DNA from: Steroidobacter sp.
GTDB taxonomy: Bacteria > Pseudomonadota > Gammaproteobacteria > Steroidobacterales > Steroidobacteraceae
DNA: 64,000 nt
Reading direction: 5' to 3'
Assembly: GCA_025929585.1 (NCBI GenBank)
Contig: JAICPY010000005.1
Coordinates: 1 to 64,000, forward strand
The position numbers and the translations under genes were made by a program. Of this stretch, positions 16,804-33,608 are shown piece after piece (positions within the stretch are counted from its first letter, which is position 1; each line of letters starts with the position of its first letter). The notes beneath the pieces were generated by a model that was not told the origin of the DNA, made no database searches, and saw only the letters and a list, made by a program, of their open reading frames with translations.

Positions 16804-17589
16804 CTAATGACTGGCATGTGTTCGGATCGGGTTCGCGGATTCGTTTTCGCGTGCACGTGCTCGAATCAAAATACTCTCGCCGATGTCGGCAGCCGTCTGC
16901 GCTGCCTCATGCGCTACGGCTTGCGCATCCTCACTGCCCGATTCGAAGGCGTCCTTCATTCCTTCGAGCTTTTCCTCCACTTCTGCCTTGGATCGCTTCC
17001 AAAGGGCCTGGCCCGTCTCGGCACCCCACGCACTGAGTGCCTTGCGTTCCTTGACACCCCAGAATAAAAGCGCGCAACTCGTTGCGCCGACGAACACGCG
17101 CCCAGCGATAGACCATCCGTCGCTGGACTTACCGTTATGCGCTGGCCGCACGCCCTCCGCGGGCTCGCGCGGCGTCAGATGATCGGTTACGACACGCACG
17201 CCAGGCACGGCGCGAGTTTCATCTAATGCTTGTTGATGCTCGTAAGTCAGAATATCGCCACGCAAGAAGACGTTGCCGTCACGCACGGCGCACGAGATTG
17301 CTTTCGGCTGAGTCACAGAATGTTCGATTGCGTGTTTGACATTCTTGCAGATCGCCTTATCGCTCATCTCTTTGCGTCCGAGGTGAGACTTAGCCTTGCC
17401 GGCGAGATCCCCAACATGGCTCGACAGGTCGTGGCGCGCATCGCGCGTTCCGAGCTCGAGCCGCTTCGCTGTCTGCGCGCACTGGTCGCGCAGCAACAGC
17501 CGCCGACGCCGACCGCTCACGGGATCCAAGAAATACATCGTGCCTGCAGCGAGCGCCACACTCAATGCCGATCGTGTAACCGCATTCAT
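16804..17589 (-). CDS. BON-domain protein with YtxH-like N-terminus
   Basis: 261 residues. The N-terminus carries a short hydrophobic stretch and the motif YFLDPVSGRRRR common to small envelope stress proteins. A central BON domain (about 75-145) includes AICKNVKHAIEH, VRDGNVFLRGDIL and GVRVVTDHL. A second hydrophobic segment (AGRVFVGATSCALLFWG) is followed by a charged helical tail with KAEVEEKLEGMKDAFESG. BON domains bind phospholipid or membrane surfaces. A palindrome (site 2) lies about 103 bp upstream of the start, so it probably belongs to the shared regulon. The gene converges with the mechanosensitive-channel gene. Confidence 0.82.
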   Translation of the reverse strand: MNAVTRSALSVALAAGTMYFLDPVSGRRRRLLLRDQCAQTAKRLELGTRDARHDLSSHVGDLAGKAKSHLGRKEMSDKAICKNVKHAIEHSVTQPKAISCAVRDGNVFLRGDILTYEHQQALDETRAVPGVRVVTDHLTPREPAEGVRPAHNGKSSDGWSIAGRVFVGATSCALLFWGVKERKALSAWGAETGQALWKRSKAEVEEKLEGMKDAFESGSEDAQAVAHEAAQTAADIGESILIRARARENESANPIRTHASH

Positions 17590-17732: not shown

Positions 17733-17913
17733 GTTGGCAGTTGACGGTTGGCAGTTGACGGACGGAGGCGGAAGTTCTGGGTTGCAGGGCAGCTACAAAG
17801 CACTGTAGCCCAAGCTGCAGGCTTCTTGACGGTCAACGCTCGGCGGTAAACTTTTCCTTGCCGCGACTCGGCTCGACACTCAGGCTGCCAACTGTCAACG
17901 GCCATCCGTCAAC
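17733..17913. repeat. Heptamer inverted element B (GTTGRCR family)
   Basis: Left array 17733-17760: GTTGGCA, GTTGACG, GTTGGCA, GTTGACG. Right array 17886-17913: TGCCAAC, TGTCAAC, GGCCATC, CGTCAAC, the inverse. The 125-bp interior holds a GTTGCAGGGCAGCTACAAAG-type stem and a second TTGACGGTCAACG palindrome. The right half lies inside the 3' end of the downstream-listed MASE1 kinase gene, supplies its last 25 or so codons, and provides its TGA at 17833-17835. Confidence 0.75.
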
Positions 17914-20022
17914 CAGCGGCTCGCGATCGCCGCTCGGCAACGTAAGATGAAAGACGGCACCCGTGCCGATGCGTGCGTTCTCCGCCCACAGTCGCCCCGC
18001 ATGTGCACCGATGATCGATCTGCTGATCGACAATCCGAGCCCTAAACCTTTTTCCTTGGTGGTCACGAAGGGTTGAAAGATCTTCTCCAGCTGAGCCTCA
18101 TCGATTCCCTCGCCGCCGTCGGCCACCGCAAGCTCCACCTCGTGCGAACCTTGCAGCCAGCGAGTGCTCAAGGTCAGCCGTTTGGCCTCCGGCGGGACGT
18201 CGGCCATTGCCTGGCAAGCGTTCACGATCAGGTTGAGAATCACTTGTTGAATCTGCACTCGATCGCCAGGTACGCACGGCAAACTGGAATCGAGCTTCAC
18301 GCTAGCGAAGACGCCGCGCAGCGCGAGATCGATGCGTGCGAGCATCAAGCTCTCCTGCACTACGTCGTTCAACTGCACCGGCCTGCGATGCGGCTGGACC
18401 TTACGAAGCATGGAACGCAGCCGCTGCACGACCTGCGCGGCACGCACGCTGTCTGCGATGATGTCGTTGAGGATTTCGCGAACCGACTCGACATCGACTT
18501 GCTCAGCCGCCATCAGTAACGCTCCCGCTTCTGCATTGGTCAGCATCGCAGCCAGCGGTTGCCTGATCTCATGAGCAATCGCTCCCGAGAACTCCCCGAG
18601 CACTGCCACACGCGCGAGGTGGGCGAGCTGTTGTTGTTGTTCCTGGACTTCGAGCTCGGCACGTATCCGCGCGGTGACATCGCTCAGGATGATTACGGCA
18701 CCTCGCTCAGGACGCCTCAATGGCTCTATCGACAGCTCGAACCAACGCATTTGTCCGTGATGCGAGCTTGAAAACTCCAACTCGCACCGTGGACGGTCGC
18801 CGGACAACACTCCCTCTAAAGCATCGCGTACCTGAGAACCGATAGGATCGCCGGATTCAGCTACGCCGAGCGTTGCTTCAAGGCAATTATCGCCCGGCAG
18901 CAAGGCGATCACTTGAAAATGCGCACGCTCACGTGCGCGGCGCCACGACTCGTTGATCTCGATGACGATGCCGGCGCTATCGACGACTGCGACCTGATCC
19001 TGGAGAGAGGCTAGAACTGAGCGGTGGAGCACTTCGCTTCGCCGCAGGGCTGCCGCTGCTTCCTTCCGCTCTTGCATCACTGCGGCCAGCAGCAACAGCG
19101 GTGCACAGGTTACGTTCAAGAACAGCACGAGCGACAGTGCGTTGTGAACCGGGACGGGATCGATAAACGGGCCGGCATCGTGCAGCACACCCCACGTTGC
19201 GAGCGCGCCGAGGGTCAGCACCGATCCAGCTGCGCCGATGATTCCGAACCGCACAGTCGCGAACAACAACAACGGGATGGGGGCATAAAGCAAAGCTGGG
19301 AATCGCTCATGGTGCTCGCCGGGCAGAATGAACACCAAAGCGCCCGTGATCACCAGACATGCCGTTATCAGCAGCACCTCGGGGGCGCGGTTCCAATGAA
19401 CGCGAAAATTTCCAGTGGCGAGTGCGTTCGCGCAATGAGCGATCAGCGGTACGAGAGTCATCGTCGCAAACGTATTGGTGATGGTCCGCGCAATCGTTGT
19501 GAGCCAGAACTCATCCGTCAGATTGAGCGCCGTGAATGCACCCGCCATTGCGGCACTCGTGATGAACGGCGCGACCAGGCTCCCCAAGACGATGAGATTC
19601 GCCATCGTGCTCAGTTTCGCAAAGCGCTGCGGCTGCGACTCGAGCCAAAGCAGCGCCGCGGCACCGAGCATCGACTCAGCGCAGTTCAGTACATATTGAA
19701 TTGCCACCTGCTCGATGGGGGATACTGGCAGCTGCGCCATCACATGAAGAGGCAGCACCGCGAGCAGGTACAACCACCAGTGGCGCAGCGGGGTAAGCAA
19801 GAGGACCGCGAACAAGATCGCGTTCGGTGCCCACAACGCGGAGACCGGCGCGGAAGGAAAGGCTAGTGCTTCGCCCAGCTTCGCCGCCAGGAAGTACACC
19901 ACCGCAACGACAGCGGCACCGATTACCGGCAATCGCGCGCCATCCGACCGATATGCAGCAATATTCGCCTCCGAGCGAATCCTCGCGAGACGCATCGGTC
20001 CCACCGATTGTTCGTACCCCAC
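17833..20022 (-). CDS. MASE1-PAS sensor histidine kinase
   Basis: 729 residues. A MASE1 membrane domain occupies about 30-325 (SALWAPNAILFAVLLLTPLRHWW). A PAS-like domain follows (about 345-465). The HisKA box is AHEIRQPLAAMLTN with His near 484. HATPase_c has N-box LNLIVNACQAM, G1 ADGGEGI and G2 GLGLGLSISRSI. It belongs to the same class as the kinase at 10778 and is the last gene before the BON gene in a reverse-strand run, 37 bp after another kinase. The final residues DGWPLTVGSLSVEPSRGK and the stop codon are encoded by heptamer element B, so the native end was probably just after the LPSGD of the ATPase domain. Palindrome site 3 is 75 bp upstream. Confidence 0.9.
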   Translation of the reverse strand: MGYEQSVGPMRLARIRSEANIAAYRSDGARLPVIGAAVVAVVYFLAAKLGEALAFPSAPVSALWAPNAILFAVLLLTPLRHWWLYLLAVLPLHVMAQLPVSPIEQVAIQYVLNCAESMLGAAALLWLESQPQRFAKLSTMANLIVLGSLVAPFITSAAMAGAFTALNLTDEFWLTTIARTITNTFATMTLVPLIAHCANALATGNFRVHWNRAPEVLLITACLVITGALVFILPGEHHERFPALLYAPIPLLLFATVRFGIIGAAGSVLTLGALATWGVLHDAGPFIDPVPVHNALSLVLFLNVTCAPLLLLAAVMQERKEAAAALRRSEVLHRSVLASLQDQVAVVDSAGIVIEINESWRRARERAHFQVIALLPGDNCLEATLGVAESGDPIGSQVRDALEGVLSGDRPRCELEFSSSHHGQMRWFELSIEPLRRPERGAVIILSDVTARIRAELEVQEQQQQLAHLARVAVLGEFSGAIAHEIRQPLAAMLTNAEAGALLMAAEQVDVESVREILNDIIADSVRAAQVVQRLRSMLRKVQPHRRPVQLNDVVQESLMLARIDLALRGVFASVKLDSSLPCVPGDRVQIQQVILNLIVNACQAMADVPPEAKRLTLSTRWLQGSHEVELAVADGGEGIDEAQLEKIFQPFVTTKEKGLGLGLSISRSIIGAHAGRLWAENARIGTGAVFHLTLPSGDREPLVDGWPLTVGSLSVEPSRGKEKFTAER

Positions 20023-20059
20023 AGAGTCCCACCCGCCTTCGAATTTCTAACTTAGCGGT

Positions 20060-21361
20060 TCATCTGTCAGTCTCGCTGCTAGTCTCCAAGGTCCGCATTG
20101 GCCCAAGGTCCAATTGCCTGCGTGTAGACCTATCGAAAGTCGCCCCGGTCGTATCCAACGCGGGCAGTGTGAAATGAAAACACGAGCCGCGACCCTCGTT
20201 TCCCGTCGCCCATAGCCTGCCGCCGTGTGCGGAGATAATCGACCGGCTGATCGCGAGCCCAAGGCCAAGGCCGTCGGTCTTGGTTGTGTAGAACGCATCG
20301 AACACGCTCTCGAACTCGGCTTCGGAAATACCCACGCCGCGGTCGATCACTTTGATATGCACCGTCGCACCTTCGCGTGCGGCGATAATCTCGATTAGGC
20401 GGTCGTGCGCGGGGTTACCGCTCATGGCCTCCGATGCATTCAGCAGAAGATTGAGGAATACCTGCTGGATCTGCACTCGATCGCCACTTACCGCCGGCAA
20501 TTCCTGGGAAATGCGCAAGCTTACGTTGACCTTTCTCGCGAGTAGATCGCTGTGTACCAGCGCCAGCACTTCGTGCACCAATTGCACCAAATCGAGCTGC
20601 TGTATCTGCGTGCCTCCGCGTCTGAGCATTGCGCGCAACCGCCGTATCACCTCGCCCGCTCGCTTATCGTCGTTCACGATATCCTGAACGATGGCGCGCA
20701 CTTCGCCGAGATCGACCGGATCCTGCGACAGAAAATGCTGAGCTGTTTGCGCATTGCTTAAAATCGAAGTTAACGGCTGGTTCAGCTCGTGCGCGAGCGC
20801 GCCGGAGAGCTGACCTAAGATCGCAACACGCGTGAGATGGTTCAATTGCTGCTGCTGGCGCTCCCTCTCAGCTTCGGTTCGTTTTCGATCGGTGATGTCC
20901 ACGACTACACCGCTCGCGCGCATCACTTGACCGCTCGAGCTTCGCCAGATGCGCGCCTTGCTGACTATCCAGCGAACCTCACCTGAGGATGTAATCACCC
21001 GAAAGCTCGAATCCAGAATCTCGCCGGACGCTCGGCGATGCGTCGCGTGGCCAAACAAGTGATCGAAGCTGGATCTATCATGGCTATGTATGCACTGACG
21101 CACCGCTTCTTTCGATAGAGGGGCCGTAGCCGGCAGCCCAATGATCGCGCGGAATCTTTCGGTTGCCCAAAACTGTTCCGGGCTCGAGCTCCAGCGCCAC
21201 AAGGCGATGTTCTCCGGGAGCGTCGCGAGCGCAATACCTTCCTCGTTGTCCTTAAAGGACACTTCGGGACTGCTACGGCGCAATTTATGCCTTGCAAGCG
21301 CGATAATCATCGCCGACTGCAACAGGACGAGCGCCAGCGCTCCTCGAGTGCGCAAACTCAT
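20060..21361 (-). CDS. PAS sensor histidine kinase, single N-terminal membrane anchor
   Basis: About 433 residues from ATG 21361; an alternative start at 21469 would overlap the preceding gene by 68 bp. One hydrophobic helix (GALALVLLQSAMIIALA) precedes a PAS domain with LWRWSSSPEQFWATERFRAI and DITDRKRTEAE. The H-box is AHELNQPLTSILSN with His near 191. N-box is LNLLLNASEAM, G1 IDRGVGI and G2 GLGLGLAISRSI. It is the same FixL/NtrB-like family as its neighbours. The non-conserved C-terminal tail, reading RRQLDLGPM, is the translation of palindrome site 3, so the tail may be regulatory DNA read as protein. It lies between the GH63-like gene (40 bp) and the MASE1 kinase (37 bp). Confidence 0.88.
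   Translation of the reverse strand: MSLRTRGALALVLLQSAMIIALARHKLRRSSPEVSFKDNEEGIALATLPENIALWRWSSSPEQFWATERFRAIIGLPATAPLSKEAVRQCIHSHDRSSFDHLFGHATHRRASGEILDSSFRVITSSGEVRWIVSKARIWRSSSGQVMRASGVVVDITDRKRTEAERERQQQQLNHLTRVAILGQLSGALAHELNQPLTSILSNAQTAQHFLSQDPVDLGEVRAIVQDIVNDDKRAGEVIRRLRAMLRRGGTQIQQLDLVQLVHEVLALVHSDLLARKVNVSLRISQELPAVSGDRVQIQQVFLNLLLNASEAMSGNPAHDRLIEIIAAREGATVHIKVIDRGVGISEAEFESVFDAFYTTKTDGLGLGLAISRSIISAHGGRLWATGNEGRGSCFHFTLPALDTTGATFDRSTRRQLDLGPMRTLETSSETDR
20097..20114. promoter_or_regulatory. 18-bp palindrome, site 3
   Basis: ATTGGCCCAAGGTCCAAT, close to a perfect dyad. It is 75 bp upstream of the MASE1 kinase gene and lies within the last codons of the preceding kinase gene. Confidence 0.6.
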
Positions 21362-21401
21362 GACGCGGTGCACCGATTCAACTGGCGTTCTTTCGCGCAG
21401 T

Positions 21402-23792
21402 TCACGGCCACTCACTCGATACTTCCAACGGCGGCTTGATCGATTCGCCTCGATCGAGGCCAGCTCCATTGAAGCTCGAGTCCTCGCTGGCCCGGTCGCC
21501 TCTTCGATAGGCGATTCGCATTACTGGAGGAGCGTGGCAAGCGGTGCTCTCGACAATCCGATAGCCGCATGCAACACAAAGTAGCGGCGCAATGACCCCA
21601 GCCCATCCCGTGCGTCCTGAGTTATCGGTCTCATCCGAGTACAGTCGCTGATAGAGCGGCATCAGCTCGCTCCATTGCTCCTCGCTGGGCTTCCCAATAC
21701 CCGGATCGACCTTGCTGCTCGCGCTTGAACGCGCGAAGACAGAGGAACTCATTCGCTGCACAATGTCTGCGCTCACATCGGCGAGCGTTCGTGCCGGCCC
21801 GCCGCGGGTTGATGCCGTCACTCGCAGATCCTCGCCGTAGTAATCGTGTAGGCACAATAGAGCGCGTACCAGAACTGCACCGGACGACACGCTGCAGAAC
21901 GGGCGATCCGTCGATGCCGCTACGGCCTGTTGATCCACCAACTGCACAATCAAAGCGCGCAATGTGGATTCATCTACGATCGACAGTATGCGCCTGCCAT
22001 TGATCGAGCTCACTTTGAGCGGCTTGAAACCCGTGAACGGGCCGGCCCGCTCGCGAGTCAGCGCGTGCACATATTCCACCAGGGCGGGCAGCCGCTTGTA
22101 TATCGTTTCCGGGAACATCGCGGCTGCACAGACTGATATCAGATTGGCTGGACGCACGGGCCGTAGAGCTGGGTTGTTGCGCTCGTTCACCGCGTTCGGC
22201 ACGCGCGCTTCAAGCCCTAGATCGATCGCTCCGATGACCGTGACGAAGCGCAGGTACAGCTCGATTGCGGTTTGCTCGTACTGAGCACTCATCAACGCGA
22301 GCTCGACTGCAATCTCGAACATGCTCTGGACATGTAATCCTATCCATGCGTTATCTGGCTCCTGGGCACGCAAGAGATTGAAGGCATGGCGTAAGAAGAT
22401 GAATGCGCGCTGCGGACGGTAAGGGCGCTGCAATCGATACATGAGCAATGTCGCCCACGCATGGAGTGAAGTGTCATAGCGCTCCTCTACATGCGCATGC
22501 TTCGCCACATCATCTATATGAAGAGCGCTCAACAGCGACTCGAGTTGATTACAGGCGATATCGGGATCGACATGTGTGAGCGCAAGCGCATGCAAGATCG
22601 CATGCGAAGCTCCAAGGTGCGTCGGCTGCCATTTATTCGGCATCGCGAGCACACGGCTGGAGGCCACGTGATAGCGAGTGCGACCGCTCGGCACAGAGTC
22701 TGGCGCGCCGCGTCGATCGTATAGCCAGCCGCTCATGTCGTAGAGATAAGTCTGCTTGTTCCACAGAGCTGTCGCGAACGCGCGGCGAAATGTCCTCGAC
22801 AATCTTGCATCACGGGGCTCCGGGGTAAGCGCCGTGTAGAACTGCTCCGCCTCCCGCCGTCGCTGCTGCAGGGTGCTGTCGAATCGGAGCGATGCGAGCG
22901 GCCATACGGAAGGAACGCCGGCGCCTAGCTGCAAGCGAACCGAGCGCGATCGACCCGGGGCCAGCGTGAGCTCATAGTGAACCGCAGCCTTGGTTCCTCG
23001 CGCCGTCGGATTCACTGCGTCCTTCACGCCATTCACGATGTTCTCGCAAATGCCATCCTTCACCCAGCGACTAACGTTCGGCCGATCGAAACAACGCATA
23101 TTGCTTTCGTTATTCGTGAACAGCGTTTGCACCGCCGATTCGTACTGCAAGTAATGAAGACCGGCTGTTGGATGGCGCGCGATGAGAAACGGGCTCCCCA
23201 GGCGGCCGATCGAGCGCTCGATGAGCGGCTTATCAACCGCGCTATCACTCTGCCACGTGTTCCGAAACCAAAGCGTCGGAAGCACGTGCACCATCGCTTG
23301 CTCCGAGCCGCGATTGTCGAGGGTGATCCGTATCAGGATCTGTTCGGCAGAGGCCTTCGCATACTCGATGAGTACGTCAAAGCAAGCCGAATACTTGTAG
23401 AGGGCGCGCATATATGAATGCGTGGGAACATTGTCCAAGTAGATGCAGCGGTCCTTGGACACCTCATCGGCCTCCTCGCTGGCGGGACCCAAACGTTCCT
23501 TCAGCGTGAGATCCCGGCCGTTCCAAAGTGCGACCGCGAAGCACAAGCGCATTTGCTCATCTGAGATTCCGGCCAAGCCATCCTCACCCCATTCGTACGC
23601 CCACGAGCGCGCTTGTTCGTAGGTGAGATCGCGCAACGCCGGATCTTCTGCGCCCTGATTCTCACGCGCGATTCCCCATTGACGCTCCCGAAGATAAGGA
23701 CCCCAGTTGCGCCAGCGCGTTCCGCGCTCGCGCGCCTCTTTAAGCCGTTCATGCTCTGCCGTCATTGCCACGCATTCCCTGTATAGATCCAT
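21402..23792 (-). CDS. GH63/MGH1-like glycosidase homologue, shortened and probably inactive
   Basis: 796 residues from ATG 23792 (or 787 from 23765). The N-terminus EHERLKEARERGTRWRNWGP then YLRERQWG, the HARSxAYxWGEDGLAGI-type segment (here QARSWAYEWGEDGLAGI), ALWNGRD and PTHSYMRALYKY place it with the large bacterial GH63-like glucosidases of about 880 residues. Two segments usual in that family are missing: about 35 residues after LYKY, where the chain jumps to SACFDVLIEYAKAS, and about 50 residues near the C-terminus that normally hold a G-x-SNWRGPVW motif. Here the text goes from VDQQAVAASTDRPFCS to GAVLVRALLCLHDYYG. Loss of that motif suggests loss of catalysis. The reading frame is intact, arguing for a repurposed protein. 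A palindrome lies 40 bp upstream. Confidence 0.8.
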   Translation of the reverse strand: MDLYRECVAMTAEHERLKEARERGTRWRNWGPYLRERQWGIARENQGAEDPALRDLTYEQARSWAYEWGEDGLAGISDEQMRLCFAVALWNGRDLTLKERLGPASEEADEVSKDRCIYLDNVPTHSYMRALYKYSACFDVLIEYAKASAEQILIRITLDNRGSEQAMVHVLPTLWFRNTWQSDSAVDKPLIERSIGRLGSPFLIARHPTAGLHYLQYESAVQTLFTNNESNMRCFDRPNVSRWVKDGICENIVNGVKDAVNPTARGTKAAVHYELTLAPGRSRSVRLQLGAGVPSVWPLASLRFDSTLQQRRREAEQFYTALTPEPRDARLSRTFRRAFATALWNKQTYLYDMSGWLYDRRGAPDSVPSGRTRYHVASSRVLAMPNKWQPTHLGASHAILHALALTHVDPDIACNQLESLLSALHIDDVAKHAHVEERYDTSLHAWATLLMYRLQRPYRPQRAFIFLRHAFNLLRAQEPDNAWIGLHVQSMFEIAVELALMSAQYEQTAIELYLRFVTVIGAIDLGLEARVPNAVNERNNPALRPVRPANLISVCAAAMFPETIYKRLPALVEYVHALTRERAGPFTGFKPLKVSSINGRRILSIVDESTLRALIVQLVDQQAVAASTDRPFCSVSSGAVLVRALLCLHDYYGEDLRVTASTRGGPARTLADVSADIVQRMSSSVFARSSASSKVDPGIGKPSEEQWSELMPLYQRLYSDETDNSGRTGWAGVIAPLLCVACGYRIVESTACHAPPVMRIAYRRGDRASEDSSFNGAGLDRGESIKPPLEVSSEWP

Positions 23793-23831
23793 CTTTCGGC
23801 ACAATCTGAACGTTGGACGGCCCACCTCACA

Positions 23832-23849
23832 ATGCGGCCTTGGTCCAAC
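23832..23849. promoter_or_regulatory. 18-bp palindrome, site 4
   Basis: ATGCGGCCTTGGTCCAAC in the 62-bp gap between the DUF4105 gene and the GH63-like gene, 40 bp before the latter's start. The right half is exact; the left half is weaker. Confidence 0.5.
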
Positions 23850-23854
23850 TTCCA

Positions 23855-24895
23855 TCAGCCAGAGTCGATAGGCAGAGAGGCGCGTATGCGCTCGGAGAAG
23901 TCGGGCGCGGACCCGCTGGACTGGGCGGCCTCGTTGATGAGAGAGCGCCGTCGCAGATCCTCGAATGGCACAGTTGTGCTCAAGCGTCCCTCGCGGTACA
24001 GGGCACGGTCGGCCAAGCCGTTGAGGTAGTGGCGCACGTCGAACGGCAATGGACGTCCGACGACATTCGCGTAGCGGACAATGTTGATGGTGCAGCTGTT
24101 GCTCAGCAGATGATAGAACTCGGGATGGTCCGCCAACTGATTGATGCGCTGCAGATAAACTAGAAACAGCTGTCGCGCGTTCTCCGGCGTCGTTCTGATG
24201 CGATAGAGATACACGTCCTCGGCGCGATGATTGGTTCGCAGGCCGACGATATCTCGCTCCTCGCCGACCACGTAGATGAGCTCGAACTGCTTGAAGAGCG
24301 AGGCAATCGGCGAATACCCCTCGGTGATCTCCGGCCGCACTTCGATCGACACGCTCAATGGAGGCGCATTGTCGAACACGAAGCTCAAGAAGGTGTGCCC
24401 GATCGGGCCGGGCATCCAATAAGAGATATAGAAGTCCACGGCGATGAGGTGCGACAGAGCAACCTCGCGGCTTTTGTAACGCGGCGTAAAGTCATCTTGG
24501 CTCTCGTAGTCGAAATTGCGAACGCCGGTGATGCGAACGCGATCACCCTCGATCGTCGCGCGCGGCATCACGGCTACTTCCTTACGCCACGAACGATCGT
24601 GCGATGGATGAATAGTCATCCACCAAACCACTACGCCGGCAAACAGGACTGCGAAGGCTGCAACGGCGCGTGGACGGCGCACGAACCAGAGCGCCCCTAT
24701 ACCGAACGCCGCAAAGGCAAGCGCTAAGACGGCTCGGGCCCACACCCAAGGAAGATTGGAGAAATAAATGGCAAGCGTGCCCCAGCAAACCACTAGCACC
24801 TGAAGAGCATGCTTCAACGACACTGCCCCCGCGTGCAATAGCTTCCATAGCCAGGTTTTCCAGACTCGCGATTCGTACGTTCGAGGCGATCTCAT
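23855..24895 (-). CDS. DUF4105 (Lnb N-terminal periplasmic domain) membrane protein
   Basis: 346 residues. Three membrane helices lie in the first 95 residues (LQVLVVCWGTLAIYF, ALAFAAFGIGALWFV, AFAVLFAGVVVWWM). A periplasmic DUF4105 domain follows: VRNFDYESQDDFTPRY, WMPGPIGHTFLSFVF, SIEVRPE, ELIYVVGEERDIVGLRTN and the hallmark SNSCTINI. In Bifidobacterium the related domain is part of lacto-N-biosidase. In proteobacteria its role is not established; a thiol-based amidase or peptidase-like activity has been suggested from the invariant Cys. It sits in an operon-like run between a SHOCT protein and the GH63-like protein. Confidence 0.85.
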   Translation of the reverse strand: MRSPRTYESRVWKTWLWKLLHAGAVSLKHALQVLVVCWGTLAIYFSNLPWVWARAVLALAFAAFGIGALWFVRRPRAVAAFAVLFAGVVVWWMTIHPSHDRSWRKEVAVMPRATIEGDRVRITGVRNFDYESQDDFTPRYKSREVALSHLIAVDFYISYWMPGPIGHTFLSFVFDNAPPLSVSIEVRPEITEGYSPIASLFKQFELIYVVGEERDIVGLRTNHRAEDVYLYRIRTTPENARQLFLVYLQRINQLADHPEFYHLLSNSCTINIVRYANVVGRPLPFDVRHYLNGLADRALYREGRLSTTVPFEDLRRRSLINEAAQSSGSAPDFSERIRASLPIDSG

Positions 24896-24934
24896 GGGCT
24901 GCGGATGAGGGCCTGCGATGTGGGCTCTTTCGAG

Positions 24935-25231
24935 CTACATCGCGAGCACTCGGGCCTTCGCAGCGGCGTACTCTTTATCGCTCAATGCGCCTGAGTTTTT
25001 CAGCTCGGCAAGGCGCTGTAAGCTGCCTACGATATCTGGGCTGTTGCCGGCTGAGACAGGCGAAGCCGTCTCGAAGGGCATCGCGGACGCAGCACGATTA
25101 GCTTGGCGACTATCCTGGGCCGCGAACTTCTGTTGTTGGCGGCGCTGCACGCGCCCGGCCACGCTGCTGGCCGTACCCGCAACCACTGCGGTGCGCGCGG
25201 CCGTGCGAAGTAGTCCTCGTCGTCTTGGCAT
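24935..25231 (-). CDS. Small SHOCT-domain protein
   Basis: 98 residues from ATG 25231. A basic leader (MPRRRGLLRTAARTAVVAG) and a Gln-rich stretch lead to a C-terminal SHOCT motif DIVGSLQRLAELKNSGALSD followed by KEYAAAKARVL. This short helical module is found at the ends of many proteins and is thought to mediate assembly. The stop of leucyl aminopeptidase is only 5 bp upstream, so the genes are co-transcribed. A longer frame extends back into the aminopeptidase gene and was discarded. Function unknown; similar SHOCT proteins are common in stress-gene clusters. Confidence 0.82.
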   Translation of the reverse strand: MPRRRGLLRTAARTAVVAGTASSVAGRVQRRQQQKFAAQDSRQANRAASAMPFETASPVSAGNSPDIVGSLQRLAELKNSGALSDKEYAAAKARVLAM

Positions 25232-25236
25232 GATGG

Positions 25237-26841
25237 TTACTCCGCAGACGCACGTTCCGCGCGTTTGATCAAGAACTCGGACAGTAAGGGAACTGGCCGT
25301 CCCGTCGCACCCTTGGCATCTCCGCCTAGCGATGCAGTTCCGGCGATATCCAAATGCGCCCAGCGATAGTTTTGTGCGAACCGCGAGAGGAAGCACGCAG
25401 CCGTCACCGAGCCCGCGGGCCGCCCGCCGAGATTACTCATATCGGCGAAATTGCTCTTCAGCTGATCCTGATACTCATCGAACATCGGCATGCGCCATGC
25501 GCGATCGCACGTCTCGGTACCGCACTGAAGCAACTCGTCCGCTAACGCGTCATCGTTCGCGAACAAGCCACTCGTCTGCGTTCCGAGGGCGATTACGCAC
25601 GCGCCGGTGAGCGTAGCGATATCAATGACGCAATCGGGATTGAAGCGCTCAGCGTAAGTCAATGCATCGCAAAGCAGCAGGCGTCCTTCGGCATCCGTGT
25701 TCAGTATTTCGATCGTAAGGCCAGACATGGATTTGACGACGTCGCCGGGACGAGTTGCATTGCCGCCCGGCATGTTTTCCGCGGCGGCAACGATACCGAC
25801 TAGGTTGATCGGCAGTTCCAGGCGAGCCACGGTCTTCATCGCGCCGAACACGCTCGCCGCCCCACACATGTCGTACTTCATCATGTCGAGGTCTTCGCCT
25901 GGCTTGAGCGAAATCCCGCCCGTATCGAATGTGACACCTTTGCCTACCAGTACAATCGGTTTGCCTTCGTGCTCAGCGCCTCGGTAGTGCATGACGATGA
26001 ACCTGCAGGGTTCATCCGAAGCTCGGCCCACTGATAGGGCTGAGTACATCCCCAGCTTCGCCATGTCCGCGCGCTCGAGCACCTCGACGCCGAATCCGAG
26101 CTCCTTGCCGAGCTCACGCGCGCTATCGGCGAGATAGCCCGGATGACAAACATTGCCCGGCAGATTGCCGAGATCTTTCGTGAGCGCCATGCCTTCGGCA
26201 ATTGCCTGTCCGCTGCGCACGGCGAACTCTAGGTCCTTCGTAACCTCCTCATCGATGAGCAGGGCAATGTTGCGCGCACGACGCTCTGATTTGTGTTTGC
26301 CGTTCTGCTTCTCCTTCGGGGCATCGAAGCGATATCCGCCGTCCGCGAGAATGCGGCTTGCTTGCTGCAGTCGCCATGCTAGTGAACGGCCTGCAACATC
26401 GATCTCGGCGAGCGTCACCGCAACATTGACGCTCGATCCCGATGCCAATGTCGTCGCCACGGCGTTGAGTACGTTTGCGAAAGCGATGTCGTTGAATTTG
26501 TCGCGCGCACCGAGATTGACGAGCAACACTCGTTGCGCCTGCGCGCCCTTGACGTCGAACAACATGATCGAGGAGCCCGCCTTCGGATCCAGATCGCCCC
26601 GCTTGATCAACGCCGATAACTTTCCTTTGGAGGAAGAGTCGAGGGCCTGAGCTGACGGCAGCAACGAACCGTCGGCGAATGCACCGACAACCAGGACATC
26701 GGTGAGCGCATCCAAAGCTGCGGATCTCTTCAGACTGATCTGCGGCGACACACGCTCCAGTACGAGGTAATCGATCGGTTTAGCGCTCGGCGCGGAGCTC
26801 GATTCTCTCGCACGCGAAGAGGCTTCAGTATCGTTGGCCAT
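25237..26841 (-). CDS. pepA: Leucyl aminopeptidase (M17)
   Basis: 534 residues. The M17 catalytic half is intact: VGKGVTFDTGGISLKPGEDL (Lys, Asp ligands), then DMCGAA and the signature NTDAEGRLLLCDALTYA near 380. Two metal ions bound by Lys/Asp/Asp/Asp/Glu and a bicarbonate-binding Arg are expected. It removes N-terminal residues from peptides in the cytoplasm. The start ATG 26841 has AGGAG about 7 bp upstream. The longer frame upstream is heptamer element C translated. It follows an AbgT-type transporter, suggesting uptake then hydrolysis of glutamyl or other dipeptides. A second M17 gene lies at 33898. Confidence 0.92.
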   Translation of the reverse strand: MANDTEASSRARESSSAPSAKPIDYLVLERVSPQISLKRSAALDALTDVLVVGAFADGSLLPSAQALDSSSKGKLSALIKRGDLDPKAGSSIMLFDVKGAQAQRVLLVNLGARDKFNDIAFANVLNAVATTLASGSSVNVAVTLAEIDVAGRSLAWRLQQASRILADGGYRFDAPKEKQNGKHKSERRARNIALLIDEEVTKDLEFAVRSGQAIAEGMALTKDLGNLPGNVCHPGYLADSARELGKELGFGVEVLERADMAKLGMYSALSVGRASDEPCRFIVMHYRGAEHEGKPIVLVGKGVTFDTGGISLKPGEDLDMMKYDMCGAASVFGAMKTVARLELPINLVGIVAAAENMPGGNATRPGDVVKSMSGLTIEILNTDAEGRLLLCDALTYAERFNPDCVIDIATLTGACVIALGTQTSGLFANDDALADELLQCGTETCDRAWRMPMFDEYQDQLKSNFADMSNLGGRPAGSVTAACFLSRFAQNYRWAHLDIAGTASLGGDAKGATGRPVPLLSEFLIKRAERASAE

Positions 26842-26880
26842 CGAGACTCCTGTGTTTCGGCGCGCTTGCGCTTGCCTCAC

Positions 26881-26957
26881 GTTGACAGTTGACTGTTGAG
26901 GGTTGACGGTCAGAACAAGCCCACTCTGCCTCTGGCTGTCAACTGTCAACCGTCAAC
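26881..26957. repeat. Heptamer inverted element C (GTTGACR family)
   Basis: Left array: GTTGACA, GTTGACT, GTTGAGG, GTTGACG. Core: GTCAGAACAAG...CTCTGGC. Right array: TGTCAAC, TGTCAAC, CGTCAAC. This is the cleanest copy, 77 bp, placed between the AbgT gene and pepA of the same operon. Confidence 0.85.
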
Positions 26958-26990
26958 GAAGAAGCGCCATCGTCTTTGGCGCTTCGTACT

Positions 26991-28589
26991 TCAGAATCCC
27001 CAGGGCAGGCCGAGGAGATGCCAGATAACGAAGAGCAGCGTCCATAAGACGAGAATCGTCAGCACATACGGCAGCATCAAAGCGATGACGGTGCCGACTC
27101 CCGCTTTGGGATCGTATTTCTGCGCGAACACCACGATCAACGCGAAGTACGCATTCAGGGGCGAGATCGCATTAATGGGACTGTCCGCTACGCGGTAGGC
27201 GGCGAGCACGACTTCAGGCTCGACATTCAATCGCATCAACAGTGGCACGAACACGGGAGCGAAGATCGCCCACTTCGGAATAGAGCCGGTCATGATCAGA
27301 TCGAGTAGGAGAATCGCCGCGATGAAGCCAAGCAGTAGCGTGAGGCCACCGAACCCCGCGTTCTCCAGCGCATCGCCCAGATTCACGGCGGCAAGTGTCG
27401 CCATGTTGCTGTAGGTAAAGAACGCCAAGAATTGACTGATGACGAACAGCAGGAAAATCAGCCCGGCAAGACCTTTGACCGCCTTCTCCATTGCTGAGAC
27501 GACATCGACGGTGCTGCGGATGGTCCTCGCACCGGCGCCGTACATCCATCCCGCCGATAGAAATAGAATCGTGATGAACACGATCAGCCCGTTCATGAAG
27601 GGCGAATCGCCAATCAGCGCGCCGGTTTCGGGATTACGCAGCGGCGCTCCCGGTGGCAGCGTCAGCAAGCCAAAAATCAACAGCGCGCCCAACAATCCAT
27701 AGCCAGCGAACTTCAGCCCGCGCGATTCTTCGGGCGACATCGCTCCCTTACGCTGGGGCGGTGGGCCTTCTCCTGTGTAAGCACCGAGCCGAGGCTCGAC
27801 CACTTTTTCGGTGATGAACGACACCACCAACGTCAGTAGTACGACGGAGGCGACGGAGAACCAGAAATTCGCGGTGAGATCGATGGACGCGGTCGGATTC
27901 ATCAGATGAATCGCATCGTTCGTAATGCCTGTCAGAATGCCGTCGAGCGGCTTGATGAGGATGTTGACACTGAACACGGCCGCAACGCCTGCGAACGAGG
28001 CGGCGAGACCGGCGAGCGGATGTCTGCCGAGCGTCAGAAATGCCGCTGCGGCAAGTGGAATCAGCACGAGGTATCCGGCATCTGCCGCGATGCTCGAGAG
28101 GATGCCGATAAACACCAAGATGTACGTCATGAGCGCGCGCGGCGCGACATTGACCAGTTTGTGAATCAGCGCCTTGATCAGACCCGCTTCCTCGGCGACG
28201 CCGACACCCAGCATCGCCACAATGATCACACCGACCGCATTGAAGTTCATGAAGTTCTGCACGACTTCGGTGAACATGAAACGGATGCCGTCCGCGGTCA
28301 GTAAGCTTTGGGCACTGGCAGTAACTTCTTCAGCCTCGTGCGTATCGGGATTGATCGCCTGATACGTGACGCTCGAGCCCATCATGTAGAACACGTGCGA
28401 GAGCACGATGACTATTCCGATCAACAGCACGAAGATCACTACGGGGTGGGGAACTTTGTTCCCCACCCGCTCGACGACATCGAGCATTCGCTCCATACGT
28501 GTCTTGGAGCCGGCCTTGCCTGTCGATCTCGCGGGCTCATCCGCATGCGCGAACTCAGGAGAGTCGATCGGAGGCGAGTGTTTCGCCAT
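26991..28589 (-). CDS. AbgT-family transporter
   Basis: 532 residues with about eleven to thirteen membrane segments. The AbgT signature appears early (VERVGNKVPHPVVIFVLL), followed by GVGVAEEAGLI, SSIAADAGYLVLIPL and, near the end, SPLNAYFALIVVFAQKYDPK. E. coli AbgT imports p-aminobenzoyl-glutamate. Relatives (MtrF, YdaH) export sulfonamides, so import of a glutamyl conjugate is only one option. It lies 38 bp after the DUF1269 gene and is followed by pepA, an arrangement that favours peptide uptake. Codons for the N-terminal GNKVPHP contain an 11-bp perfect hairpin (28444-28468). Confidence 0.92.
   Translation of the reverse strand: MAKHSPPIDSPEFAHADEPARSTGKAGSKTRMERMLDVVERVGNKVPHPVVIFVLLIGIVIVLSHVFYMMGSSVTYQAINPDTHEAEEVTASAQSLLTADGIRFMFTEVVQNFMNFNAVGVIIVAMLGVGVAEEAGLIKALIHKLVNVAPRALMTYILVFIGILSSIAADAGYLVLIPLAAAAFLTLGRHPLAGLAASFAGVAAVFSVNILIKPLDGILTGITNDAIHLMNPTASIDLTANFWFSVASVVLLTLVVSFITEKVVEPRLGAYTGEGPPPQRKGAMSPEESRGLKFAGYGLLGALLIFGLLTLPPGAPLRNPETGALIGDSPFMNGLIVFITILFLSAGWMYGAGARTIRSTVDVVSAMEKAVKGLAGLIFLLFVISQFLAFFTYSNMATLAAVNLGDALENAGFGGLTLLLGFIAAILLLDLIMTGSIPKWAIFAPVFVPLLMRLNVEPEVVLAAYRVADSPINAISPLNAYFALIVVFAQKYDPKAGVGTVIALMLPYVLTILVLWTLLFVIWHLLGLPWGF
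28444..28468. other. Strong hairpin inside the AbgT coding region
   Basis: GGGTGGGGAAC, loop TTT, GTTCCCCACCC: 11 perfect pairs near codons 41-49 of the transporter gene. It encodes the conserved VGNKVPHP segment, so the structure may be a by-product of codon choice. Confidence 0.6.
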
Positions 28590-29270: not shown

Positions 29271-30299
29271 TTGCGCACGCATTCCCACGTAGAAGAGATC
29301 GCCGATTCGTCGCGAGTGTCGACAGGTGCGCTGCCGTCCGCGGAACTCGTGCGCGCAGCGATGAAGCAGGCCTACGAGCGCTATCGCTCGATTCAAGAAG
29401 GTGAACTCGCTACCTATATTCCCGCACTAGCCGCCGCCAACGCAGGTTCATTTGGCTTGTGCATCGTCAGCGTGGATGGCGCTGTGTCCGCGATCGGCGA
29501 TTCGAGCTGCAGGTTCACGATTCAAAGTGTCGCGAAGCCCTTCGTACTGGCACTCGTGTGTCAGGCATGCGGCTGTGAGGAGACTCGCGAGAAAGTCGGC
29601 GTTAACGGTACGGGCATGGGCTTTGATTCGATACTGGCGATCGAATTGAATCCGCAACGCACGATGAACCCGATGGTGAATGCCGGTGCGATTGCCACGA
29701 CCAGCCTCGCGCCCGGAGAAAGCGCCGCGGACAAATGGCGATTCATTCACGATGGGCTGTCCCGCTTTGCCGGCCGCACGCTCGAGCTGAACGAGGATGT
29801 CTATCGGTCCGAAACAACCGCCAATCAGCGCAATCTCGGCATCGCCTACCTGCTGGAGAGTTATCAGCGCGTGTACTTTGACGCGGCTCAAGCGACTGAT
29901 GTCTATACCAAGCAGTGCTCGCTCGACGTCACAGTCGAGGACCTGGCGGTGATGGGTGCGACGCTTGGAGACGGTGGCGTCAATCCACTCACGGGCGAAC
30001 AAGTCGTCGATCCGGCGATATGCAAACGCGTCCTCGCCGTGCTCGCGACCGCCGGAATGTACGAGCGCTCGGGTGATTGGCTGTGCGACATCGGACTGCC
30101 CGGTAAGAGCGGCGTCAGCGGCGGAATCGTCACGATCGCGCCAGGCAAAGGTGGCATGGGAGCGTTCTCGCCGCTCCTCGATGAAGCAGGCAACAGCATC
30201 CGGGCTCAGCTTGCAACTCGATTCCTGTCGGAGCAGCTCGGGCTCAATCTGTTCGCATCGAAAGCCGCGCAGGGTTCCGCTCACGTGAGAGCATCATGA
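29271..30299 (+). CDS. glsA: Glutaminase (serine-dependent, GlsA type)
   Basis: 342 residues. It has the beta-lactamase-like fold of GlsA/YbaS enzymes, which convert glutamine to glutamate and ammonia. FTIQSVAKPF carries the catalytic Ser-x-x-Lys (Ser near 86). NPMVNAGAI, QRNLGIAYLL and LPGKSGVSGGIVTIAPGKGG are also present. TTG 29271 is chosen as start: GGGAGG lies 8 bp upstream, and any longer frame would include palindrome site 5. The stop overlaps the ATG of the next MFS gene by 4 bp (ATGA), giving a translationally coupled glutaminase/transporter unit. By analogy with E. coli YbaS-YbaT, this may support acid tolerance or nitrogen release. Confidence 0.92.
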   Translation: MRTHSHVEEIADSSRVSTGALPSAELVRAAMKQAYERYRSIQEGELATYIPALAAANAGSFGLCIVSVDGAVSAIGDSSCRFTIQSVAKPFVLALVCQACGCEETREKVGVNGTGMGFDSILAIELNPQRTMNPMVNAGAIATTSLAPGESAADKWRFIHDGLSRFAGRTLELNEDVYRSETTANQRNLGIAYLLESYQRVYFDAAQATDVYTKQCSLDVTVEDLAVMGATLGDGGVNPLTGEQVVDPAICKRVLAVLATAGMYERSGDWLCDIGLPGKSGVSGGIVTIAPGKGGMGAFSPLLDEAGNSIRAQLATRFLSEQLGLNLFASKAAQGSAHVRAS

Positions 30300-31975
30300 A
30301 CCACAAAGTCACGCCGAATAGCGCCACCGCAGAGGCACCGGATGCGTCCTGGATGCCGATGATCGTCATTGCGATGGCGCAGATCATGATGATCTTCAAC
30401 GTCTCGACGCTGCAGGTTTCGATCGATGGCATCGCATCGAGTTTGGATATCTCGGCGACTACGGTGGGCACCGCGATCGTGACCTACGCGCTGGTGGTCG
30501 CCGGATTGATTTTGCTCGGTGCTCGAGTCGCGCAGCTCTATGGCTCGCGGCGCGTGTTTCGCGCAAGCGTAGTTCTGTTCGGCGCTGGGATGGCAATCAT
30601 GGCCTTGAGTCCTGGCGTAATCACGATGATCGTCGCACAGGTCATCGCCGGTACGGCGGCGGCGGCTCTCGTGCCTACGCTCGTCGTCTTGATCGCCGAC
30701 AACTACAAAGGTAATCAGCAACAAAAAGCACTCGGCTGGCTCGGTGGAGCGCCGGCGATGGGTATCGTACTTGCCTTTCTCATCGCCGGTTCTCTAGCGA
30801 CGTGGGTCGGCTGGCGTTTCATGTTCGCCTTGCTCGTTGCGTTATCTGCGGGCGTTTACAAGCTCGGCGCTAGACTCAATCCGGCTAGCGGCGACTCGGC
30901 CGTGAGAATCGATTGGGCAGGAGCCGTTTTCGCGGCGCTCGGAATTCTCTTGATCAGTGTCGGCAGCGACAATCTCACCGCCTGGGGAACGTTGCTGGCA
31001 CGCCCCGCCGCGCCTTTCAGCGTGCTGGACATGTCTCCGGCGCCGCTCATGATTCTCGGCGGGATCTTTCTCGGTCAGGCTTTCATTACCTGGTCACGAA
31101 GACGCAGCGCCGCTGGCGGGATGCCGTTGGTCTCGCTCGAAGTGCTGGACACGCCCAAGGAGAGATCGGCGCTGTTCTCGATATTCATCATCAGCGCCTT
31201 GGCATCCGCGACCACCTTTCTGATTCCGCTCTACATTCAGGTCGTTCAGGGCGGCAGCAGCTTTCAGACTGCGCTCGCGGTCATTCCCTTCTCTGTCGCG
31301 AGCTTCGCAGCCGCAGTGCTCGTAATTCGTCTATACGAGCGAGTCAGTCCGGCCCGCATCGCACGCAATGCATTTCTCATCGTCGCAACAGGCCTTGCGC
31401 TCCTGGGCACAGTGATCCGCAACGACTGGAGCGACACCATGGTGATGATCAGCATGGCGGTCGCCGGCCTCGGTGAAGGTGCGCTCGTGACATTACTATT
31501 CAACGTGCTCGTCACGGCCTCTCCGAAAGCACTTGCGGGCGATGTGGGATCCGTGCGTGGCGCGACCAACAATCTCGCGACTGCTGTGGGCACAGCCTTG
31601 GCCGGCGCACTGATCGTCGGTTTGCTGACCTCCGGTGTGCACAAGAATCTCATTCACAATGCGCGGATTCCCATCGAGCTGAAAGCTCAATTCGAGCTCG
31701 ACAGTGTTCCGTTCATCAGCAACGGTCAACTGCGGCAGACTCTGGAGCGCACGCGAGCGCCTCCGGAACAGATCGCCGAAGCGGTTCGCATCAATGTCGA
31801 TGCGCGATTGCTGGCATTGAAACTCACGTTCTTCACGTTCGCGGGTTTCGCCTTACTGGCGTTCTTTCCCGCCGGCTCGCTGCCGAATCATTTGCGCAGC
31901 GAAGAGTCGCGGTTCGAAACGCAGCAGCGCGCTTCCAAGCCGAAAGAGCGTTCCGCAATCTCGCCCGCTGCGTAG
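30296..31975 (+). CDS. MFS transporter, DHA2/EmrB-like (first of a tandem pair)
   Basis: 559 residues with about 14 membrane segments, the DHA2 arrangement. MFS motif A-like LLGARVAQLYGSRRVFR follows TM2, and IVAQVIAGTAAAALVP is the motif-B/C region. A periplasmic stretch with PFISNGQLRQTLERTRAP precedes the last helix. It is coupled to glutaminase by a 4-bp overlap and followed 7 bp later by a paralogue. Substrate unknown: drug export is the family norm, but linkage to glsA suggests an amino acid or related amine (inference). Confidence 0.88.
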   Translation: MNHKVTPNSATAEAPDASWMPMIVIAMAQIMMIFNVSTLQVSIDGIASSLDISATTVGTAIVTYALVVAGLILLGARVAQLYGSRRVFRASVVLFGAGMAIMALSPGVITMIVAQVIAGTAAAALVPTLVVLIADNYKGNQQQKALGWLGGAPAMGIVLAFLIAGSLATWVGWRFMFALLVALSAGVYKLGARLNPASGDSAVRIDWAGAVFAALGILLISVGSDNLTAWGTLLARPAAPFSVLDMSPAPLMILGGIFLGQAFITWSRRRSAAGGMPLVSLEVLDTPKERSALFSIFIISALASATTFLIPLYIQVVQGGSSFQTALAVIPFSVASFAAAVLVIRLYERVSPARIARNAFLIVATGLALLGTVIRNDWSDTMVMISMAVAGLGEGALVTLLFNVLVTASPKALAGDVGSVRGATNNLATAVGTALAGALIVGLLTSGVHKNLIHNARIPIELKAQFELDSVPFISNGQLRQTLERTRAPPEQIAEAVRINVDARLLALKLTFFTFAGFALLAFFPAGSLPNHLRSEESRFETQQRASKPKERSAISPAA

Positions 31976-31982
31976 ATGGCAG

Positions 31983-33608
31983 ATGGAAGCTGGCGCCAGC
32001 TCGCGAGCCTCTTGGACGCCGCTCGCCGTCATCGCGATGGCGCAAGTGCTCCTGGCTTTCAACATCATCACCTTGAAGATCGCCATCGACGCGATCGTGA
32101 CGAGCTATAACACGCCTGCGAGCACGGTGAAGACCGCGATCATCTTCTACTCGCTGGCCGTGGCCGGCTGCATCATGCTCGGCGCACGGATCGGCAGCGT
32201 CTTCGGCTCGCTGCGCGTATTTCGCACCACCATCGCATTGTTCGGCGCCGCCATGCTGATGATCGTGCTCAGCAGGAATGCGCTTACGATGATCGTTGCG
32301 CAAATCATCGCCGGAATCGCAGCCGCCGCAATGGTTCCAACATCGGTGGCACTGATCGCGGACAATTACCAGGGCGATCAACAGGCGAAGTCGCTCGAAT
32401 GGTTGGGCACGGTGCGCAGCATCAGCCTAGTGCCGGCTTTTCTGCTCGCCGGCGCGCTGGCGACGTACAGCGATTGGCGCGTCGCTTTCATTCTGTTGCT
32501 GGTGCTGACCGCGAGCATCTACAAACTCAGCGGTAAACTCAGCTCCTCCCCGGTTCAGTCGGGCGTGAGCATCGACAGGGTCGGCTTCCTGTTGACCTGC
32601 CTGGCCGTACTACTGATTGGTCTCGGATTCAACAATCTTACGGACTGGGGAGTGTTGCGGGCCAGACCGGAGGCACCGTTCAGCGTGCTGAGCCTTTCTC
32701 CGGCGCTACTCGTGATCCTTTGCGGCGTGCTGTTCGCAAAGTTGTTCATGCTTTGGGCGCACAAGCGCCGCGCCGAAGGGGCCGCGCCTCTCATCGCGTT
32801 GGAAATGATCGTCGCTCCGCGAGAACGATCGGCGCTATTTTCAATATTTACCATTGGCGCCGTCAGCTCCGGCATCACCTTCCTGATCCCGCTCTATATC
32901 GAGATCGTGCAGGGACGCAATAGTTTGTACACGGCGCTCGCGATGATCCCCTTCACGCTATCGAGTGTTGCCGCCGCATTGATGGTTGCACGACTGCGTG
33001 GTCGGGTGCGCCCGCGACTTATTGCACGCTATGGCTTTCTGATCGTGGCCGCCGGATTGACCATTCTCGGCGCGACCATCCGCAACGATTGGAGCGACAC
33101 TCTGGTGATCTTCAGCATGATCGTCGCCGGCCTTGGCGAAGGCGCACTCGCGACACTTCTCTTCGACGCATTGGTTACCGCCGCACCCCGGGAAGTCGCT
33201 CAAGACGTGGAACCTCTGTGCGATGCCACGAGCCATCTCGCAATGGCCGTGGGCACCGCCTTGGCGGGTGCACTTGTGATCGGCGTATTGAGCTTCGCGG
33301 TCCATCGCGATCTCTCAGTCAATCCCACCATTGCCGCAGAGCTCAGAACGCACCTGAATCTTGAGCGGGTTGCTTTCGTCAGCAACGACCATCTGCAGCA
33401 AACATTGGAACGCACCTCCGCCACTGCCGAGCAAGTTGCCGAAGCCCTGCGCATCAACACGCAGGCGCGGCTGCGTGCGCTCAAGTTTTCATTCTTCGCG
33501 TTGGCAGGTCTCGCTCTGCTCGCGTTCATCCCGCGCGCGGGAGTCGGAGAGGATGAGTCAGAAGGGGACACTCCTCGGGGGCCAGAAATGTCCCCAGTTG
33601 ACAGTTGA
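31983..33608 (+). CDS. MFS transporter, DHA2/EmrB-like (second of a tandem pair)
   Basis: 541 residues, clearly a tandem duplicate of the preceding gene: LGARIGSVFGSLRVFR, VLLIGLGFNNLTDWGVL, TFLIPLYIEIVQGRNSLYTA and VAFVSNDHLQQTLERT align with it throughout. It starts 7 bp after the upstream stop. The last residues (EGDTPRGPEMSPVDS) are not transporter sequence. They come from an inverted repeat beginning at 33564, and the TGA (33606-33608) lies inside a GTTGACG heptamer of element D. The duplicates may form a heteromer or have split substrates. Confidence 0.88.
   Translation: MEAGASSRASWTPLAVIAMAQVLLAFNIITLKIAIDAIVTSYNTPASTVKTAIIFYSLAVAGCIMLGARIGSVFGSLRVFRTTIALFGAAMLMIVLSRNALTMIVAQIIAGIAAAAMVPTSVALIADNYQGDQQAKSLEWLGTVRSISLVPAFLLAGALATYSDWRVAFILLLVLTASIYKLSGKLSSSPVQSGVSIDRVGFLLTCLAVLLIGLGFNNLTDWGVLRARPEAPFSVLSLSPALLVILCGVLFAKLFMLWAHKRRAEGAAPLIALEMIVAPRERSALFSIFTIGAVSSGITFLIPLYIEIVQGRNSLYTALAMIPFTLSSVAAALMVARLRGRVRPRLIARYGFLIVAAGLTILGATIRNDWSDTLVIFSMIVAGLGEGALATLLFDALVTAAPREVAQDVEPLCDATSHLAMAVGTALAGALVIGVLSFAVHRDLSVNPTIAAELRTHLNLERVAFVSNDHLQQTLERTSATAEQVAEALRINTQARLRALKFSFFALAGLALLAFIPRAGVGEDESEGDTPRGPEMSPVDS

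Follow-up and report, generated by a model that had tools for sequence, protein, structure and literature searches.

A conserved and probably non-catalytic relative of GH63/MGH1-like glycosidases in Steroidobacteraceae

Bacterial GH63/MGH1-like proteins of about 900 amino acids comprise the domains PF22422 and PF03200, and many of them are annotated as 'glucosidase'. The general acid of GH63 enzymes is located in the A'-region, an insertion between the barrel helices 5 and 6, and corresponds to Asp501 in YgjK (excerpts of PMC7263609). For MhGgH, Gly180 and the catalytic Asp182 were described, and the variants D43A, D182A and E419A were each without detectable activity (excerpts of PMC6608630). 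The yeast GH63 processing alpha-glucosidase I (4j5t) and the mannosylglycerate hydrolase from Thermus (4wvb) are active enzymes (PMC7263609, PMC6608630). No openly licensed paper naming both GH63 and pseudoenzyme was found.

We analyzed a stretch of 64,000 nucleotides from Steroidobacter sp. (contig JAICPY010000005.1), hereafter called the window, which encodes a shorter homolog of these proteins. Comparison with intact homologs and with three orthologs revealed residue losses, a common deletion of 43 residues, models that match GH63 folds, purifying selection in the three orthologs and conserved synteny. The gene probably encodes a conserved pseudo-glycosidase (probability roughly 0.7), i.e., an ancestral GH63/MGH1-like enzyme that was stripped of catalysis and kept as a non-catalytic protein.

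The short gene and its relationship to intact proteins

One open frame of 796 codons without internal stops occupies the minus strand of window positions 21402-23792, in accordance with the earlier note, which had described an intact frame over 2.4 kb. The start MTAEH, common to the three relatives, corresponds to the window ATG at 23765 and yields a protein of 787 amino acids (Table 1). By blastp this protein aligned over nearly its full length with intact proteins of about 900 amino acids from related bacteria; the best E-value of 7e-128, obtained with a frame of 918 amino acids, places the proposed resemblance to GH63/MGH1-like proteins far beyond chance. Open frames of the intact relatives mostly comprise 886-958 amino acids, so the short protein lacks about 100 residues or more, compared with the shortfall of about 90 residues against the family norm given in the earlier note. 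Two of the places at which residues had been reported missing could be located: five residues follow at the LYKY site where two printed intact proteins have 39 (a loss of about 35 had been claimed), and at the SNWRGPVW-type region 31 residues stand against 73, so that 42 are gone, motif included (claimed, about 50).

Table 1. Positions of the short gene, its altered sites and its neighbors in the window.
Feature	Position	Strand	Basis
Short GH63/MGH1-like protein of 787 aa, catalytic residues lost	21402..23765	-	Translation, start common to relatives, homology, model
Upstream in-frame ATG of the short gene	23792	-	Translation
N-terminal beta-sandwich domain, better conserved part (limits approximate)	22923..23765	-	Model, column conservation
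Degenerate barrel domain (limits approximate)	21543..22886	-	Model, column conservation
Deletion point behind LYKY (34 residues missing relative to two printed intact proteins)	23388..23393	-	
Junction of the 43-residue loss that carried the general-acid Asp (A'-region equivalence inferred)	22368..22373	-	
His397 codon, position of essential Asp43 (MhGgH numbering)	22602..22604	-	
Deletion point of the WRGP-type region (approximate; 42 residues missing)	21882..21908	-	
Gln715 codon, in place of the general base Glu (Glu419 in MhGgH)	21648..21650	-	
Membrane protein with Lnb_N (DUF4105, PF13387); upstream neighbor, conserved; GHTF and NxCTxN motifs	23855..24895	-	PF13387 118 bits, synteny
BON-domain protein; ortholog directly downstream of the short gene in three relatives	16804..17589	-	Domain match, synteny
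PAS histidine kinase (ORF to 21469, guessed start 21361); neighbor of the short gene in the window but not in the relatives	20060..21361	-	
MASE1 histidine kinase, separating the short gene from BON in the window but not in the relatives	17833..20022	-	

The window protein had no match to Pfam, NCBIfam or PDB sequences up to an E-value of 1, and in a Pfam scan at the same limit neither it (P0001) nor the three short relatives were assigned to any family. PF22422 and PF03200 were present in both intact proteins scanned. The short forms share the homologous two-domain sequence and the (alpha/alpha)6-barrel fold of GH63/MGH1-like proteins, the fold being taken from models of moderate confidence, and they do not reach the curated Pfam cut-off of PF22422 or PF03200. 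This represents an annotation gap: the protein is homologous to GH63 nearly from end to end, yet no Pfam model matched it.

The predicted structure of the window protein reached a pLDDT of 73.7 and a pTM of 0.80, the beta-sandwich being predicted confidently and the C-terminus weakly; for the ortholog of Peristeroidobacter agariperforans the values were 68.8 and 0.74. GH63 glucosidase I (4j5t) was the top match of both models, with Z 16.8, rmsd 5.2 and 562 aligned residues for the window protein and Z 16.0, rmsd 4.5 and 521 aligned residues for the ortholog, which also matched 4wvb at Z 15.1. Sugar phosphorylases came next in the fold lists (Z 13.5 and 13.8), and phosphorylase as well as GH116 chains ranked below the GH63 glucosidases, so that the fold lists by themselves leave room for other families. 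Foldseek likewise placed 4j5t first with an E-value of 1.1e-10, but at a TM-score of 0.48 and an rmsd of 11.4. Because the alignments behind both models consisted mostly of intact homologs (60 rows in the second), the modeled fold is partly given by homology. A hydrophobic N-terminus is absent, the maximum KD19 over residues 1-60 being about -0.8 to -0.9, from which we infer a cytosolic location.

Loss of the catalytic residues

With HH-suite, YgjK aligned weakly and the acid motif could not be placed. The catalytic positions were therefore derived from residue spacing, column conservation and the profile alignments to 4j5t and TTHA0978. The spacing equates Gly180/Asp182 of MhGgH with Gly535/Asp537 of the intact reference protein P0012, and Trp42-Asp43 with Trp428-Asp429.

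A third loss, overlooked in the earlier note, comprises exactly 43 residues and includes the GxD motif of the general acid. The span from Phe507 to Trp562 (P0012 numbering) has 56 residues in the three printed intact proteins, whereas each of the four short forms has 13 and is consequently devoid of the general-acid Asp of the A'-region that characterizes GH63 members. The pocket Asp (Asp43 of MhGgH) is likewise not retained, being replaced by His397 in the window protein and by Ala in the three relatives. The general base is Gln715 in the window protein, and the Glu typical of GH63 is kept in the three relatives. None of the three essential carboxylates is left in the window protein, and each relative has lost two of them. 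Among 79 intact rows, which include one gene twice, Asp was found at the Asp43 position and at the general-acid position in every case, the base Glu in 78 (the remaining row has a gap) and the Trp of WRGP in 78. The comparison with characterized GH63 enzymes, which the earlier note had recommended, thus confirmed for the window protein that the acid is deleted and the base is Gln. The loss of essential residues relative to active homologs, as expected of a pseudoenzyme, extends to three of three in the window protein and to two of three in each relative; the short protein is presumably without hydrolase activity.

All three motifs were present in 135 of 167 open frames, many of them from redundant loci. 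Of the 32 other frames, 15 derive from the four short genes; the remaining 17 are of the intact type and, by their coordinates, stop at the end of the locus or at a frame break. The acid motif was detected at each of 13 further or doubtful loci, where three frames (599, 674 and 754 amino acids) run into the locus end. Stops in G125 and G131 had raised the suspicion of pseudogenes, but each of the two loci contains an open frame of 879 amino acids with all three motifs. At two named metagenome loci (L073 and L131) the frame of the GH63 homolog breaks early or is split, and the DNA match continues.

The short form might also be a re-tooled enzyme, in which acid catalysis passed to a different residue or the same fold now serves another reaction. 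Strong purifying selection (see below) is compatible with catalysis, and the base Glu is still present in the three relatives, as is one Trp from the WRGP loop. However, the window protein has neither the base nor the essential pocket Asp nor the acid-bearing segment. Aligned barrel columns conserved to at least 95% among intact proteins were matched at a fraction of just 0.34 by the window protein and 0.37-0.39 by the relatives. Four intact controls reached 0.94-1.00, and in variable columns the short forms match at 0.27-0.31. We regard a re-tooled enzyme as unlikely.

Distribution, origin and selection

The short form was identified in four of the 14 genomes of the genus, the same four that carry the Lnb_N gene. 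Three of them contain syntenic orthologs with the same loss of 43 residues, and two of these three match P. agariperforans KA5-B and P. soli JW-3. An artefact of a single assembly was rejected because the short form recurs in three other genomes. Profile searches, in which at most two to five candidates per genome were scored at E-value cut-offs of 1e-40 or 1e-60, gave matches in 33 of 217 genomes of the family (four short), 21 of 396 of the order (the same four short), 21 of 369 of the class and 6 of 398 of the phylum, the window's own gene being the only short one in the latter two; among the matches reported from these overlapping samples no further short form was recognized. Elsewhere, the short-form profile gave intact-type matches ending at or before model position 469 of 742. 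Of 171 relatives the best 80, all named loci, were retained, and two of these were short; 76 of the 80 had a span of at least 650 amino acids, and all 76 entered the first alignment. A close relative of the window gene was not found in the searches made. Spread by plasmids was examined by tblastn with a short relative and rejected: 49 plasmid records were matched, all below 60% identity, with 27.6% for the best among the 20 matches listed.

In a quick tree the four short forms constituted one clade with long stems and an SH-aLRT of 100. The tree was built from 64 of 85 rows, 21 having been thinned beforehand, and an odd composition was flagged in the four short rows and three others; long branches and composition could have inflated the clade support. 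Derived residues common to the two deep lineages amounted to 50 of 166 (0.30), compared with 0.20 and 0.15 shared with intact rows when pooled and up to 0.42 for single intact rows, which weakly supports one origin. The equal size of the deletion and the synteny support a single origin of the short forms as well.

Among the three relatives, dN/dS (NG86) of the short gene was 0.106, 0.116 and 0.090 and lay within the range of five flanking genes (0.068-0.249; Lnb_N 0.119-0.150, M17 0.068-0.152, AbgT 0.082-0.126, BON 0.169-0.249, MscS 0.118-0.165). The estimate among relatives that had been proposed as a check therefore indicates purifying selection at 0.09-0.12, a further feature expected of a pseudoenzyme; for the lineage of the window omega is only bounded, because dS to the relatives is saturated (1.7-2.2, with dN of about 0.63). 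As judged from these substitution rates, the short protein combines fast divergence between two lineages with strong present constraint in one of them, the three relatives. Between window and relatives dN was 0.31-0.33 for Lnb_N and 0.62-0.65 for BON, so that the BON neighbor diverges as fast as the short gene. The equal divergence of the two may hint at co-evolution or at a shared relaxation of constraint.

Constraint is unevenly distributed over the protein. In the N-domain, 64 of 95 columns conserved to at least 95% among intact proteins are kept by the window protein (13 gapped) and 41-43 by the relatives; in the barrel the relatives keep 31-32 of 124 such columns. The ratio of N-domain to barrel identity was 1.38-1.40 between window and relatives, compared with 0.75-1.28 in 3080 intact pairs. 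Among the three relatives it was 0.99-1.04, and both halves are therefore constrained there.

That the window gene is a decaying pseudogene, still open by chance, would agree with the loss of most conserved barrel residues (25 of 124 kept, 51 gapped) and with an identity to the orthologs of just 39% over the aligned codons. Against this stand the dN/dS values of the short form in the three other genomes and neutral simulations, in which none of 400 frames remained free of stops at each of three divergences; the mean number of stops was 20.4 at p 0.482, the observed divergence, 12.8 at p 0.241 and 11.2 at p 0.206. In addition, pN between window and relatives (0.42-0.43) was lower than pS (0.67-0.71), and the positional GC of the gene resembles that of the neighboring genes. 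For the relatives decay was rejected on the grounds of dN/dS and the frame simulation, and for the window genome we consider it very improbable.

Gene neighborhood and possible role

All three relatives show the gene order AbgT, M17, Lnb_N, short GH63, BON and MscS, followed by a kinase on the opposite strand. The window contains the same genes, with two kinases of the same direction lying between the short gene and BON. The neighborhood of DUF4105, kinases and an operator site outlined before held in part: the DUF4105 gene is a conserved upstream neighbor, the kinases are neighbors in the window and not in the relatives, and the operator site was not confirmed, as only three short imperfect palindromes were detected in 20000-25300 with the settings used. 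The GHTF and NxCTxN motifs of Lnb_N are kept in all five aligned sequences; PMC12345273 describes Lnb, of which the present protein is a paralog, as a lipoprotein N-acyltransferase. Matches to Lnb_N occurred in 29 of 217 genomes of the family. For four of the Lnb_N regions from other genera (G034, G190, G071 and G196), with identities of 67%, 64% and 45% and, in one case, pieces of 60-72%, tblastn gave no match to the short GH63 gene. When the neighbors of the 80 named loci were clustered, antisense frames dominated and no usable association emerged; Lnb_N and BON matches were obtained only at the two short loci.

Further observations concern the surroundings. The order AbgT transporter, M17 aminopeptidase and Lnb_N (window 23855-28589) is kept without short GH63 in G034, a genome of another genus (L187 5487-9896). 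In G196 (C357:38754-39595) the Lnb_N match is split over two frames, perhaps by a frameshift or an assembly error. The genes at window 30296-31975 and 31983-33608 are neighbors on the same strand with similar matches and apparently encode transporters; a matching pair exists in G034, and the start of a second copy lies at the locus edge in G003 and G001.

The earlier note had suggested glycan sensing for the adjacent kinases as a possibility; in such a scheme a sugar would be bound in the old pocket and a signal passed to the two histidine kinases. In the window both kinases follow the short gene and share its orientation, and Trp730, at the position of Trp436 of MhGgH, is kept in all four short forms. 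In the relatives, however, the next gene is BON and the kinases lie beyond MscS on the opposite strand; the proposal is unsupported because the kinases do not adjoin the short gene there. Moreover, conservation between window and relatives is lower in the barrel than in the N-domain, and of 13 mapped active-site positions one is kept in the window protein and three in each relative, a finding that speaks against a glycan being bound in the old pocket. Sensing for the kinases is thus quite unlikely. The more general suggestion of a non-enzymatic role is well supported by the disappearance of all three carboxylates essential in MhGgH from the window protein and by purifying selection in the three relatives.

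For the pseudo-glycosidase we propose the following course. A GH63/MGH1-like glycosidase of an ancestor within the Steroidobacteraceae would have lost the general-acid segment, the essential pocket Asp and most of the conserved barrel residues, and the degenerate protein would then have been retained as a non-catalytic, cytosolic binding protein. As the residues for cutting are lost and the same crippled form is kept under strong selection, the protein probably acts by binding rather than cutting. Binding might take place mainly via the N-terminal beta-sandwich domain, with the protein serving as scaffold or regulator. The likeliest partners would be the products of the conserved neighbors, the Lnb_N and BON-domain proteins; this is the weakest step and is put forward tentatively. 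It is accordingly conceivable rather than likely that a cytosolic scaffold or regulator, centered on the N-domain, serves an envelope module composed of a BON-domain protein and an Lnb_N-type membrane protein; this would suggest a putative function for the gene neighborhood.

Among known systems, the bacterial GH63/MGH1-like proteins of about 900 amino acids are closest, with homology over nearly the full length and the same domain order. They keep the pocket Asp, the acid, the base and the Trp of WRGP, whereas the short forms are without this full set. The yeast and Thermus enzymes 4j5t and 4wvb are among the best structural matches, at about 11-12% identity to the short forms in the structural alignments. 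YgjK from E. coli, a GH63 member with E727 as base, has a related fold (best rows Z 10.8 and 13.4) and a weak profile alignment; it possesses both carboxylates, whereas the window protein has neither general acid nor base.

Outside GH63, the plant protein ISA2 is a non-catalytic isoamylase paralog (PMC12510319). ISA2 pairs with its paralog ISA1, whereas for short GH63 protein searches detected no intact paralog of the same subfamily in three of four genomes (G000, 97.6% complete, G001 and G012); G003 has two and would thus fit such a pairing. A dead partner of an active paralog in the manner of ISA1/ISA2 was rejected on this account. PF22422 finds other members in G000, G001 and G012 that were not reported by the protein searches. 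In common with ISA2, the short form is a member of a glycosidase family kept without a functional catalytic site, and as a natural lineage without the acid-bearing segment, at dN/dS near 0.1 in three species, it would offer a probe of what the GH63 N-domain does without catalysis.
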